44,766 bases of DNA from Candidatus Heimdallarchaeota archaeon (GCA_023270155.1 JAGLTB010000001.1:1-44766); one strand, 5' to 3'. Positions 5,522 to 10,570 are shown, counted from the stretch's first letter. Program-made: numbers and translations. Notes: generated by a model from the sequence alone, not told the origin.

Positions 5522-5854
5522 TCATTCATCACAAGGTATGGTGTTTTTTAAATAGACATTAAAAGCATCGACAAGATTATTACATTCTTCTAAAACAGGA
5601 TAATCTTGAAAGGAGGGTATATTGGTTTCTTTTTTAGCATCTGAGCTAAGAGACGCAACCCTTGATCTTCTGATATTTCCCCTGCCATCAATTGATAAGA
5701 TAAGTGTGTGATCATCAGCATGCATCAATACGAAGTTAAACAACTGACTTTCTTTTAATTCCTCAATCTGTTTTTTTTCAATTTTGCATTCCACCATTCT
5801 TCCACATTTCTCACAGCTGAATGCTCTCACGATATACTTACCTTTGTTTTCCAT
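5522..5854 (-). CDS. Small protein with an N-terminal CxxC(x5)C motif, last gene of the GTPase cassette
   Basis: I do not recognise this 110-residue protein. It begins with a short beta-like segment carrying C14, C17 and C23 (FSCEKCGRMVEC), which could form part of a zinc knuckle, although a fourth ligand is not obvious nearby. The middle part (about residues 30-70), with LMHADDHTLILSIDGRGNIR, looks like a small alpha/beta fold, and C108 lies near the end. It starts 20 bases after the small GTPase stop codon on the same strand and closes the five-gene cassette, so an accessory or partner role for the GTPase is a reasonable inference from position only. Confidence 0.7.
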   Translation of the reverse strand: MENKGKYIVRAFSCEKCGRMVECKIEKKQIEELKESQLFNFVLMHADDHTLILSIDGRGNIRRSRVASLSSDAKKETNIPSFQDYPVLEECNNLVDAFNVYLKNTIPCDE

Positions 5855-5874
5855 TCCAATTCCACTGATTTATT

Positions 5875-6471
5875 TTATATGCCTGAATATTTTGAAATTA
5901 GTTCATCGGCTAAATTGCTCTCTTTGTTGATTATCTGATCTACTATATACTCAAATGGCTCTGATACGTTTACAGAATAAAGACCACTAACTAGAAAGTG
6001 CTTTTTAATGTTATAATTTTTCATAAAATCATGAACATCCTCAATCGATACTTCAGCATTTTCTATATCTAGTTTGTTTCCAACCAATATCTCGGGTATT
6101 GTTTGATAAAAGTGATTCGCAAGATAATTTCTTGTTAGATCAACAAACTCATTTAAATAAACAAGAGTTTCAATATCAGTAACATCATAAACATAAATTA
6201 CTCCTTTTACTCCTCGAAGAAAGACATCTATCATGAATCTAAATTGCTTTTGGCCTGCAAAATCCCAAATTTGAAGCGTAACTGTTTTACTACAATGAAC
6301 CATTCTCTTTACTGTTATGTCTACGCCTTTTGTCATAGAAATTTGATTAAGATCGGAAATCTCACCTGAATAACCTTTTGAAATTGTTGTTTTTCCTACA
6401 GAACCTAGCCCTAAAACTGCTATTTTGAGAATGTTTCCCTGTTTTGTGTTATGTGAGTATAATGCGCTCAT
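5875..6471 (-). CDS. Ras-superfamily small GTPase
   Basis: The 198-residue protein carries the main GTPase motifs: G1 GLGSVGKTT at 21-29, a switch I region around 45-55, G3 WDFAGQ at 69-74 and G4 NKLD at 132-135. The fifth motif is poorly conserved (VSGLYSVN instead of the usual SAK/SAL). G3 has the A-G-Q triad, so the catalytic glutamine is present. No C-terminal cysteine is seen, so lipid anchoring by prenylation is unlikely. The length and motifs fit the Rab/Arf/Ras-like GTPases abundant in Asgard archaea. It lies 24 bases after the FIST gene and downstream of a roadblock gene; roadblock proteins are known partners or regulators of small GTPases. Confidence 0.92.
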   Translation of the reverse strand: MSALYSHNTKQGNILKIAVLGLGSVGKTTISKGYSGEISDLNQISMTKGVDITVKRMVHCSKTVTLQIWDFAGQKQFRFMIDVFLRGVKGVIYVYDVTDIETLVYLNEFVDLTRNYLANHFYQTIPEILVGNKLDIENAEVSIEDVHDFMKNYNIKKHFLVSGLYSVNVSEPFEYIVDQIINKESNLADELISKYSGI

Positions 6472-6495
6472 TATAAATCATATCCTAAAAAAGAT

Positions 6496-7839
6496 TTAAA
6501 ACACCACATTTTTTGTATTAACTGTGGGTTCTCCTGCAACAAAACCATGTATAGAAACAGCTGAATAAATCGGTTTTTGGTTAATAAGAGAAAATTCTCC
6601 TCCTGAATAAAGCGTGATAAATGGAACATCTTCTCCTAATGCTTGTTCAATCAGCTTATTCTCTTTATCAATTTTGTCTCCTGCTATTAGTAGTCTATTA
6701 CTACAATTTATGAAAATTCCAAACCTTAGATCAGTCAGACCTTGTATAAGGTTGTTGGCGCATTCAAAAGCAGATTTTTGAATTCCAGTTCCCGATTGTG
6801 TAAAGAAATCAGCTTTAATATTATCATTGCATAACGATTTCTCCGGAACTGTAGCTATTACTCCATCCAGTATTGGGTGGCAGACGGATACAAAAGGAAC
6901 ATAATCTTCATATTCATTTTCTAAAGCGGATAAATATAACAAAGAAGCATATGATAACTTGCCAAATGCTTCATCATACAAATCTCTAGATATATCAATT
7001 AACTCCAAAAAAGCTTCATTCGCTGGTTTTTTGTTTATTTTCTGAACATATCCACTGCTTTTTAGAAATTCAGTGAGGAAGAAATTTCTGCTATGCTGTG
7101 ATTTATCAAATGTCCAATTATTGTTGAAACTTAGCTTGTCGGATGAAAATATTGTTCCAACTAAGGCATTTTGGAATACATTTTCACCACTAAATTGATA
7201 ACATTTTTCCATATCCAAATCTATTGTGGCTCCGCCTAATGCGTTCTTTACTCCGTCTTCTACTAGAGTTTTTAATATTGTATCAGCGAATAATGTAGAG
7301 CCGTAGCCATTCTTACCCATATTTTTATTGATTATCCTCCCAATTAAATTAAACATTTTTTTGAATTTTTTCGCGAAAAAGGTATCTAGAACCTTCAATT
7401 GCTCGAATGCATCAGTTTGATAAAATGGACCTGGTGTTAAGAAAAATCCTAACTTTGATAATTTATCTGTAGCTTTATACGCATTTTTTATTTCTTGTGC
7501 ACCTTTTTTGGGATTGATACGTACATTTGTATAATCAAAGGGAGGTTGAATTTGAACTTCATCACCTTTAAATCCCATAACTGAACAGCCTTGTGTAGTT
7601 GGCAATTCATTAGATGTAGCTACTCCTGGGAAGATACCCCCGATTACATTTTTTGTTCCACTTTCCTCACAAATCTTTGCGAGTGCATATTCGTAATCTT
7701 CCTTGCTTTGGTAATTAGGTGTAAATGCAACTAAAAGAAAATCAGGTGTACCGTTTATGTTATCGATTACGTCTTTAATTATTGTTTTTGTTGCTTGATT
7801 AATTGATCTATGGCTAGTTGTTCCTGCTGTTATTTGCAT
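6496..7839 (-). CDS. FIST domain sensory protein
   Basis: The 447-residue protein has the FIST N plus FIST C architecture. The N-terminal half contains typical stretches such as LLVAFTP, VIGGIFPGVATS and LGFFLTPGP. The C-terminal half has HPILDGVIATVPE, SALECAN-like SAFECANNL and the end block FITLYSGGEFS. FIST domains are predicted small-ligand (probably amino acid-derived) sensors found with signalling output domains, and act in the cytoplasm when, as here, there is no signal peptide or membrane segment. It starts 9 bases after the roadblock gene with a strong GAGGGG ribosome-binding site. Stand-alone FIST proteins usually sit next to two-component genes, so this GTPase neighbourhood is unusual. 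Confidence 0.85.
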   Translation of the reverse strand: MQITAGTTSHRSINQATKTIIKDVIDNINGTPDFLLVAFTPNYQSKEDYEYALAKICEESGTKNVIGGIFPGVATSNELPTTQGCSVMGFKGDEVQIQPPFDYTNVRINPKKGAQEIKNAYKATDKLSKLGFFLTPGPFYQTDAFEQLKVLDTFFAKKFKKMFNLIGRIINKNMGKNGYGSTLFADTILKTLVEDGVKNALGGATIDLDMEKCYQFSGENVFQNALVGTIFSSDKLSFNNNWTFDKSQHSRNFFLTEFLKSSGYVQKINKKPANEAFLELIDISRDLYDEAFGKLSYASLLYLSALENEYEDYVPFVSVCHPILDGVIATVPEKSLCNDNIKADFFTQSGTGIQKSAFECANNLIQGLTDLRFGIFINCSNRLLIAGDKIDKENKLIEQALGEDVPFITLYSGGEFSLINQKPIYSAVSIHGFVAGEPTVNTKNVVF

Positions 7840-7848
7840 ATAAACCCC

Positions 7849-8208
7849 TCACAAGTAGTTAGCTATGATTTGAGATTTTCTTTTTGCTTCAATTGACAAC
7901 AAACTAAGATTCACATTCTGATTTGCTAATGCTGTAAGAATTGTTATACTATTAACAACAAAAAACAGAACGCAAAATTCATTTAGTTCATATGTTACTT
8001 TGTTTAGATTATTTGATCTCATTTCAAGTGAAACTTTTTCTACGTTAGCTTTACACCATTGGACTGTTCTCAACAATTCTTGCGAATATTTCTTATTGAA
8101 ACATGATTCTACAACATTTCCATCAATTCTGAACAACATTGAAGCTTCAACATCTTCCAAAAATATGAGATCCTCCAATTCAGAAGAAATTCCTTGAATG
8201 TAACTCAT
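7849..8208 (-). CDS. Roadblock/LC7-like protein
   Basis: The 119-residue protein has the size and pattern of a roadblock/LC7 fold: an initial helix (SSELEDLIFLED), a strand with the VEASMLFRIDGNVVES pattern, a central helix, and strands NKVTYELNEFCVLFFVV and SITILTALANQNVN before a last helix. Such proteins dimerise and bind small GTPases (MglB, LAMTOR). Sequence identity to named members cannot be judged here. The start codon overlaps the stop of the KaiC-like gene (ATGA), and GAGGT precedes it, so the two genes should be translationally coupled. The GTPase two genes downstream is the obvious candidate partner. Confidence 0.78.
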   Translation of the reverse strand: MSYIQGISSELEDLIFLEDVEASMLFRIDGNVVESCFNKKYSQELLRTVQWCKANVEKVSLEMRSNNLNKVTYELNEFCVLFFVVNSITILTALANQNVNLSLLSIEAKRKSQIIANYL

Positions 8209-9131
8209 TTCTTAACCTCTTGCAATATTTGAGGATCAGTTAAAACGTTTACAAGTTCAATATTCTCTTTTCCTTCTCTTTTTTCTCTTTCACCAAGTAG
8301 ATTATTTGCAATTTGAGCGATAATTTGTTTCTTTGGATCTTTGTCCTTAGACATTTCCTTAATTTTCTTCTTTAATTCCAAGTATCTTACATCATTAGTT
8401 TTGGAATCGATGATTATCTCTGCAACTGAACTAGTATCTATAGATATACCTTGACCGAAAGCAAATTCCAGAGGATAAATTCCTTCATGATGAGCAGTTC
8501 TTCTTGATTTAACTATTTTACATGTTCTGTTGTATTTACCACCCAATCCTAAATTCTGGATATGAATCACGCTGTCTGATAAGTAGATAGGAACCCTTGT
8601 TTCGACAGCACCAATATCCGTTTGTCCAAATGCATTGGGTTCTTCAATTGTCTGCAATACTGTTCCTAGTGAGCTTAAGTGGTGATATATTTTGGTTAAT
8701 ACTTTTCTTTGATCTTTCTCTGATGGAAATTCCCAAAGAATAGGTGTTAAAGGATCAAGTATGATTCTAGTATGTTTTACGTTTTTATATTTGAGCTTCT
8801 GTGCTAAAGCAGGTAGTATATTAGTCATAAATTCCACAATTTTTTCACTTTCAACAAGATGAATCAAATCGTTGTAATTTTTTGCAATCTCTTTTATTTT
8901 TATGCCTAGTGATTCTGCTTCTGACATAAGCTTCGAAGGTGATTCTTCGAAAGAAAGATACAATATATGATCTCCTTCGAGCAATCCTTGATATACATAA
9001 GCTAAAGCAAATGTAGTTTTTCCGGTCCCACTGCTTCCTACTATTGAATTAATCGAATTCTTAATCAATCCTCCTTGTAAGAGCACATCAAGACCTTCAA
9101 TGCCAGACGATATTCTCTCTGCACGTGTCAT
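8205..9131 (-). CDS. KaiC/RadA-family ATPase, first gene of the signalling cassette
   Basis: The 308-residue protein is a single-domain KaiC-like RecA-fold ATPase. It opens with SSGIEGLDVLLQGGL, has Walker A GSSGTGKTT at 32-40, the catalytic glutamate pair E62-E63 (LSFEESPSKL), and a Walker B strand ending LDPLTPIL. A charged, helical C-terminal extension follows after about residue 255. Archaeal KaiC-like proteins often pair with signalling genes and act as ATP-driven regulators of partner proteins. This gene heads a five-gene minus-strand operon and is divergent from the winged-helix gene at 9256, with about 125 bases between their starts for both promoters. Confidence 0.9.
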   Translation of the reverse strand: MTRAERISSGIEGLDVLLQGGLIKNSINSIVGSSGTGKTTFALAYVYQGLLEGDHILYLSFEESPSKLMSEAESLGIKIKEIAKNYNDLIHLVESEKIVEFMTNILPALAQKLKYKNVKHTRIILDPLTPILWEFPSEKDQRKVLTKIYHHLSSLGTVLQTIEEPNAFGQTDIGAVETRVPIYLSDSVIHIQNLGLGGKYNRTCKIVKSRRTAHHEGIYPLEFAFGQGISIDTSSVAEIIIDSKTNDVRYLELKKKIKEMSKDKDPKKQIIAQIANNLLGEREKREGKENIELVNVLTDPQILQEVKK

Positions 9132-9218
9132 TTAAATCTATATTGATACCCAAATAAGCTAAATAAACTCCACAATTTCTTTTGCTGAATTCTTTGAAAA
9201 TAAAAGCTGAGAGCAATA

Positions 9219-9255: not shown

Positions 9256-10014
9256 ATGAGTTCCCTCTTAAAGAAAATAAAAGAGCTTTTCATATCAAAA
9301 GAAAAAATCTTCACTAATATGTTAATCGAAGAATTGGAAAACAAGGATTTCATTAATATAAGAAAACTGTCTTCTAAACTATCTATTCAACAACGATATA
9401 AAATCACAAACAAACTAATATCTAATGGTAGTATTAGTGGAATTCTTTTGCCTGAAACAACGTTTTTTTTCTCAATACAAAACGAAGAATTAACAGCAAT
9501 CAAAGATCAGCTTAAAAGAAAAGGAAGCATAGATTCATCTACTTTAAAAGAGAAGTGGGGGGTTAAAAACAAGTATCTAGAACCACTATTAATGCATTTT
9601 GAGAAGGGTATTCTAACACCCAAAACCTATTACACCATCAGATATCTTCATGAACATATTATATCTACATTGAATAAAGAAGATGAGTATGAAATTAAGC
9701 TGTTCAATGAAAAATTAAGTGTTGAACTAGATGATTTAATCAAGATTGTTCTAGGTTTAATAAAAGAAGGGTTGCTCCTTGGTGTTCTGCAGAATAACGA
9801 ACTATTTCTAAGTGCAACAAAATTTGAGGATTTAATTACTGAATATGTTGAAGATAAATACGACCTGGCTGATGAAGTTGAATTCAATGAAATCTCTATC
9901 GATTTAAAAGTTTCACAAGATTCTATAGAGAAGTATTTGGTTAATATTGTGGAAAAAACACCAGGAATATATGCTGTATATCCCTTGGAAAAGAAGATAA
10001 AATTCAAAAAATAA
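9256..10014 (+). CDS. Tandem winged-helix protein (possible UFL1-like repeats)
   Basis: This 252-residue soluble protein has no clear catalytic motif. By eye it reads as three or four consecutive winged-helix units: NIRKLSSKLSIQQRYKITNKLIS (near 35), a unit with TLKEKWGVKNKYLEPLL (near 97), a third around KLSVELDDLIKIVLGLIKEGLLLG (near 155) and a fourth with EFNEISIDLKVSQDSIEKYL (near 215). Such repeats occur in the E3 UFM1-ligase UFL1 and in PCI-type scaffolds, both reported among Asgard proteins, and the order of helices and short wings is reminiscent of UFL1. That link is a suggestion only. It is divergent from the KaiC cassette and could also be a DNA-binding regulator of it. Confidence 0.75.
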   Translation: MSSLLKKIKELFISKEKIFTNMLIEELENKDFINIRKLSSKLSIQQRYKITNKLISNGSISGILLPETTFFFSIQNEELTAIKDQLKRKGSIDSSTLKEKWGVKNKYLEPLLMHFEKGILTPKTYYTIRYLHEHIISTLNKEDEYEIKLFNEKLSVELDDLIKIVLGLIKEGLLLGVLQNNELFLSATKFEDLITEYVEDKYDLADEVEFNEISIDLKVSQDSIEKYLVNIVEKTPGIYAVYPLEKKIKFKK

Positions 10015-10132: not shown

Positions 10133-10570
10133 ATGGTTAGGAAGTTACCTTGGGTTTTTCCTGGTATTAGGAGACCTAATTTTAGTTTACATCAAATCTC
10201 TATTAGAATTCCTACAAGAATTCCTCGAAGTGTTCTCTATATAGTAATTTATGGTATAATCTTCTACATTTTTAGTGGAGGAGCTTATGATATTGTAAAT
10301 CAAGAAAATCTTGTCAGTATTGGACAAAGAGGAAACGCTCCACTCTTCCTTGCACCTAGTCTACACGCACAATATCTAATCGAAGGGATTGTAGCAGGCT
10401 TTGTATTCGCTTTTGCAGCATTGAGCCTATATCTTTTTGATCATGCAACAAGGTATGCGTTTGATGTTAGTACAGCTCAAAAGGTTGAATTAATTGCAAC
10501 TGTCTTAATTGTCATATGGTATGTAGCAATACTTCTCTTATATAATGCAAAACTGCCTGCGAGGGCTTAG
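10133..10570 (+). CDS. OSTC/OST3-OST6-like oligosaccharyltransferase subunit
   Basis: The 145-residue protein has three membrane segments (about 34-56, 83-104 and 118-139). It resembles eukaryotic OSTC/DC2, the short form of the OST3/OST6 family: a proline-rich cytosolic start, first membrane helix followed by SGGAYDIV (SGG/TGG-YDV in OSTC), then AQYLIEGIVAGF before helix two (GQYIMEGL in OSTC), and an end near AKLPAR (MKLPGY in OSTC). These matches are from memory and by eye but agree in order and spacing. In eukaryotes this subunit joins the oligosaccharyltransferase to the translocon for N-glycosylation. It lacks the thioredoxin domain of OST3/6. No catalytic STT3/AglB gene lies in the window. 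It is convergent with the RadB-like gene, with 3 bases between stops. Confidence 0.8.
   Translation: MVRKLPWVFPGIRRPNFSLHQISIRIPTRIPRSVLYIVIYGIIFYIFSGGAYDIVNQENLVSIGQRGNAPLFLAPSLHAQYLIEGIVAGFVFAFAALSLYLFDHATRYAFDVSTAQKVELIATVLIVIWYVAILLLYNAKLPARA

Follow-up and report, generated by a model that had tools for sequence, protein, structure and literature searches.

The 44,766-nucleotide stretch of Candidatus Heimdallarchaeota archaeon DNA analysed here (GCA_023270155.1 JAGLTB010000001.1:1-44766, hereafter the window) carries, at positions 5522-9131 of its minus strand, a cassette of five open reading frames. It is a genuine and closely conserved Asgard operon, which has the appearance of a new archaeal form of the bacterial G-protein signalling operons. 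The genes encode a KaiC-like ATPase, a roadblock/LC7 protein, a FIST protein, a Ras-superfamily small GTPase and a small protein with a predicted zinc site (Table 1), and are separated by intergenic gaps of -4, 9, 24 and 20 bases. An earlier note on the window had described five minus-strand genes with these spacings as probably one transcript, with translational coupling between the first two; the coordinates and strand were all verified, and the coupling is backed by the -4 overlap of kaiC and the roadblock gene, which is present at 21 of 21 loci. The end of kaiC also contains CAAGAGGT at 20 of the 21 loci (the exception is an E to G change that retains GGAG), and this is likely the ribosome-binding site of the roadblock gene, built into the end of its upstream neighbour. 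The five genes very likely form a single transcript, and the G+C content of the cassette equals that of the window (32.7%). Taken as a whole, we give an even chance to the reading that the cassette is a dedicated G-protein signalling module working like an actinobacterial conservon.

The arrangement is maintained throughout the family of the window (f1), in which a FIST protein was found in 21 of 23 genomes from three genera; the two genomes without a match have a completeness of 78% and 82%. In the 20 loci that were fetched, as in the window, the KaiC-roadblock-FIST-GTPase-zinc protein order and strand are the same save for genes lost at contig ends, i.e. the order is retained in 19 of 19 loci that are not cut, and in one split genome (G022) a second contig holds the remaining cassette genes in order. 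Such recurrence is not chance. Missing conservation of gene order, which the earlier note had named as a result that would tell against it, was not what the three genera gave, and the module thus extends beyond the genus with its order, strand and -4 overlap. Ribosomal-protein genes follow the cassette in the window, and those genes were not found downstream of the intact cassette in the second and third genera; as the order is intact where the downstream flank differs, it is the cassette itself that is held together. Within the genus, the promoter-like block upstream of kaiC is conserved from locus to locus; in the third genus it is weaker. The flanking intergenic DNA, by contrast, is variable. 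A scan of GTDB contigs gave one close relative only. A further copy, in a genome of family f7 (G061, locus L104), lies on a 6.8-kb contig with about 90-91% DNA identity to loci of the window's genus and was left uncounted, as it probably stems from contamination during binning or from a recent transfer.

The protein families that the earlier note had named were all backed, those of KaiC, Ras and FIST by Pfam and that of the roadblock protein by profile evidence. The KaiC-like protein matches Pfam KaiC with 121.4 bits over residues 8-232, and its Walker A (GSSGTGKTT), SFEE and LDPLTP motifs are kept in 12 of 12 aligned orthologues; with a KaiC domain, Walker A, catalytic glutamates and Walker B it belongs to the KaiC/ArlH superfamily. 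Membership of this superfamily is also what speaks for reading the cassette as an archaeal clock or as a KaiC/ArlH system of the motility type, to which the other genes would be accessory, a reading that is already disfavoured and that we consider highly improbable. A clock KaiC is recognized by two KaiC domains, whereas this protein has a single RecA domain in 308 residues and scores 115 bits against a curated cut-off of 408; as ArlH it scores 46.6 bits against a cut-off of 215, and no genes for KaiA, KaiB or the archaellum were observed in the cassette or close to it. Separately, a second KaiC that closely resembles the cassette type (394 bits) stands alone in one genome of the window's genus (L189, 3688-4623).

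The 119-residue protein, taken as a single sequence, had no match above cut-off in Pfam. Its profile, built from 12 orthologues, matches the solved Asgard Robl_LC7 structure 7f8m over residues 5-115 (E 2.9e-4), and matches aligned Asgard roadblock-type proteins, a reference set that includes proteins with sub-threshold Robl_LC7 matches in Pfam, over residues 7-117 with an hhalign probability of 91%. As these matches cover its whole length, the assignment to the roadblock/LC7 family is supported at the level of sequence profiles. An AlphaFold2 (AF2) model built from two sequences (the window and one close relative) reached a poor predicted local distance difference test (pLDDT) score of 46, too low to inform on the fold.

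The small GTPase matches Pfam Ras with 98 bits, and the closest solved chains are Rab7/Ypt1. Elements G1-G5 are all present with the catalytic motifs intact, and across 12 orthologues G1 (GLGSVGKT), switch I (MTKGVD), G3 (WDFAGQ) and G4 (NKxD) are conserved, as is a G5 that reads SG instead of SA.

A wider survey of 228 Asgard genomes found FIST, besides f1, in each of the 12 genomes of a second family (f5), which is of the window's class but not of its order, and in a small number of other families. Eight f5 genomes have the order GTPase-KaiC-roadblock-FIST; in the others the locus is truncated or reads KaiC-roadblock-FIST, and one of these retains what appears to be the remnant of a broken GTPase gene. 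Identities between f1 and f5 are 32% for KaiC, 28% for the roadblock protein, 21% for FIST and 30% for the GTPase. With one misbinned-looking f1-type contig left aside, the KaiC proteins of the f5 cassettes rank first among matches outside f1, at 92-120 bits, the next reaching at most 78 bits; so do most roadblocks of these cassettes, at 50-65 bits, the next reaching at most 39 bits, and the f5 FIST proteins. KaiC-roadblock-FIST is therefore, on these profile rankings, an inherited core; a small GTPase lies beside it in both lineages but on different sides, which either replacement or divergence may explain.

A test of whether the GTPases of f1 and f5 are specific orthologues gave no support for it. 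Searched with the f1 GTPase profile, other f5 GTPases outscore those of the f5 cassettes, and with the f5 profile many other Asgard GTPases rank higher. A reverse search marginally favoured orthology in four of five genomes, the GTPase tree was unresolved and carried a long-branch warning, and a KTTISK extension of the P-loop common to both is the sole feature pointing towards orthology. Together with the f5 cassettes in which the GTPase is missing or damaged, and with the zinc protein not being found in the f5 cassette, these rankings weigh against a dedicated five-gene module; because specific orthology of the f5 GTPase is unsupported, and the gene is absent or damaged in some cassettes, the GTPase may be only loosely tied to the core. 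On a rival reading the GTPase and zinc protein are a separate unit that shares a transcript with a KaiC-roadblock-FIST core; the third genus, with larger gaps of 42 and 54 bases before these two genes, would also speak for this. We regard such a separate unit as rather improbable, as accidental neighbours would hardly come about twice, on opposite sides of the core in the two families, and as the order is maintained at every uncut f1 locus. In three f5 genomes (L184, L185 and L186) a close paralogue of the cassette GTPase lies directly after another roadblock-type gene outside the cassette, so that Asgard archaea do have roadblock and GTPase genes paired in operons.

The last gene of the f1 cassette encodes a 110-residue protein with no Pfam family above cut-off and no NCBIfam match, for which a PDB profile search gave weak, chance-level matches only and an AF2 model, from the same two-sequence input, a similarly poor pLDDT of 54. 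Residues C14, C17, H45 and H49 are invariant in 12 orthologues, and a C-x2-C...H-x3-H zinc site is predicted. The domain recurs in other Asgard proteins (hhalign 99%): in another family of the same order it forms the N-terminal part of a 290-residue protein whose remainder is an Arf/Rag-like GTPase (L131, 2645-3517), and elsewhere a protein with this domain lies directly after a small GTPase (L122) or after a probable roadblock without a Pfam match (L135). As the domain is found fused to, or beside, GTPase and roadblock-like genes in Asgard genomes, a role of the zinc protein as a GTPase accessory factor is plausible.

The FIST protein, the only one found in its genome, matches Pfam FIST_N with 30.8 bits (cut-off 23.2) and FIST_C with 25.6 bits (E 1.5e-5), just under the curated cut-off of 28.5; we count both domains as present, though FIST_C is below its cut-off. 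A PDB profile search with the protein gave only weak, chance-level matches. The earlier note had taken FIST to be a predicted ligand sensor, a role that is possible but conjectural. The FIST domain of NosP is a heme/nitric oxide (NO) sensor and NosP controls a partner kinase (PMC12570481), but the FIST domain of human FBXO22 is a protein-docking domain that recruits substrates and is without an obvious pocket (PMC11185555). The f1 and f5 FIST proteins have no histidine in common, which would point, weakly, against heme binding, and no kinase gene lies in the cassette, an operon with a histidine kinase partner being the mark of NosP-type systems.

Four loci of f19, a family whose 'Loki-like' label is inferred from gene content, combine FIST with two roadblock-like proteins, LuxE and LuxC (L106, L107, L109 and L110), and some f19 FIST loci have an added protein with a sub-threshold gelsolin match. 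That FIST and roadblock are paired there without KaiC or GTPase is a further point against the five-gene module, since it indicates that FIST may serve the roadblock protein and not KaiC. Alongside the pocketless FBXO22 domain and the missing common histidine, these Loki-like neighbourhoods, with their gelsolin-like protein and LuxC/LuxE, would also agree with FIST as a protein-docking subunit, in which case a roadblock-FIST scaffold would recruit cargo or partners and KaiC and the GTPase would act as ATP- and GTP-gated loaders. We consider such a scaffold unlikely, as the prokaryotic FIST proteins described in the literature consulted are linked to signal transduction (PMC12570481, PMC11185555) and the cassette FIST has no known partner protein. 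As to the signalling module, the repetition of both roadblock-GTPase and FIST-roadblock pairs in the phylum supports the cassette genes as working parts of one system.

The closest parallel to this plan is the conservon, or actinobacterial G protein system (CvnA-D, with CvnE/F), whose operon likewise encodes a hub that uses ATP, a roadblock protein, a Ras-like GTPase and a small protein of unassigned function, some conservons also having a separate cytoplasmic sensor as FIST may be here. In conservons the roadblock CvnB homologue MfpD is a GTPase-activating protein (GAP), the small protein is a likely guanine nucleotide exchange factor (GEF) and the accessory sensor CvnF stimulates the ATPase of CvnA (PMC13343842). 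A roadblock and a Ras-like GTPase in one operon, a mark of conservons, are found in the cassette too, and by analogy it is plausible that the cassette works like a conservon. It is not itself a conservon, because the histidine kinase is absent: a KaiC-family ATPase takes the place of the histidine-kinase-like CvnA, FIST replaces the GAF or P450 accessory, the zinc-site protein replaces CvnC, and the host is an archaeon. The likeness is one of the plan of parts.

Other known systems resemble the cassette in fewer parts. MglA/MglB also places the genes of a roadblock protein and a Ras-superfamily GTPase together, whereas here the GTPase best matches the Rab/Ras type, the roadblock protein is divergent (without a Pfam match), and FIST and KaiC are added. 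In NosP/NosK/NosR, too, FIST is a stand-alone protein whose operon also encodes a signalling protein that uses ATP, but this system differs in having a histidine kinase and a response regulator, both absent from the cassette, as is a common conserved FIST histidine. Eukaryotic Rag/Ragulator and the Asgard roadblock/GTPase sets also join a roadblock platform to a small GTPase, the latter in an Asgard archaeon; FIST and KaiC are not known to have a counterpart in these systems. The study of MK-D1 found operons unhelpful for matching Asgard GTPases to roadblock regulators, and MK-D1 GTPases lie generally outside roadblock operons, whereas the cassette is a conserved operon. The KaiC family has been proposed as a hub of archaeal signalling, and the cassette agrees with that proposal in having one ATPase of the KaiC type next to genes for sensing and regulation; the partners in that proposal are reportedly two-component parts, and here they are a roadblock protein and a small GTPase. 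Comparative searches concentrated on Asgard genomes and were thin beyond them, and a literature search that was thin on subscription journals gave no paper uniting FIST, KaiC and roadblock. The earlier note knew of no module in which FIST stands beside KaiC and a small GTPase, and this agrees with the literature searched, but the overall plan is known from conservons (PMC13343842).

In the signalling module as we picture it, a roadblock dimer would regulate the Ras-like GTPase as a GAP, a GEF or a platform, in the manner of MglB and CvnB/MfpD, and this regulation is the step that we hold to be probable. KaiC would replace the histidine kinase CvnA as a hub that is driven by ATP and controls the roadblock protein, a role that falls slightly short of an even chance. 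FIST would stand where the accessory sensor does, as an input or docking subunit that binds a ligand or a partner protein and modulates KaiC, and the zinc protein may aid the GTPase as an accessory factor; a strict signal order of FIST to KaiC to roadblock to GTPase is doubtful. Our tentative proposal is an undescribed Asgard system in which a KaiC-family ATPase, via a roadblock dimer and with FIST as input, governs the nucleotide state of the Ras-like GTPase, which, if true, would be an archaeal G-protein system that unites KaiC-hub signalling with eukaryote-type GTPase/roadblock control. Asgard genomes encode dozens of small GTPases and many roadblocks, and matching regulators to GTPases is hard; the cassette offers a fixed roadblock-GTPase pair with a probable input, ties GTPase control to the ATPase family proposed to be central to archaeal signalling, and suggests that conservon-type operonic G-protein systems occur in archaea too.

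Table 1. Genes and signals of the cassette, in window coordinates
Feature	Position	Strand	Remark
KaiC-like ATPase, 308 aa	8205-9131	-	single RecA domain and conserved C-terminal tail
Roadblock/LC7 protein, 119 aa	7849-8208	-	start codon shares 4 bases with kaiC stop
FIST_N + FIST_C protein, 447 aa	6496-7839	-	Pfam
Ras-superfamily small GTPase, 198 aa	5875-6471	-	Pfam Ras
Small protein, predicted zinc site C14-x2-C17 + H45-x3-H49, 110 aa	5522-5854	-	invariant residues
Shine-Dalgarno-like GAGGT	8215-8219	-	within kaiC 3' end, upstream of roadblock ATG
Promoter-like block GAAATTGTGGAGTTTATTTAGCTT...ATATAGAT	9136-9179	-	immediately upstream of kaiC
TATA-like TTTATTTA in promoter-like block	9160-9167	-	conserved across loci

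Two plus-strand genes lie beyond kaiC in the window. The divergent neighbour (9256-10014), kept across the family, has weak DDRGK similarity, its third-genus counterpart (L044, 11561-12286) matches E3_UFM1_ligase above cut-off, and it is possibly a UFL1/DDRGK-like protein in an archaeon. The second gene (10133-10570) encodes an OST3/OST6-like membrane protein, i.e. a eukaryote-type oligosaccharyltransferase subunit, with a match above the Pfam cut-off.

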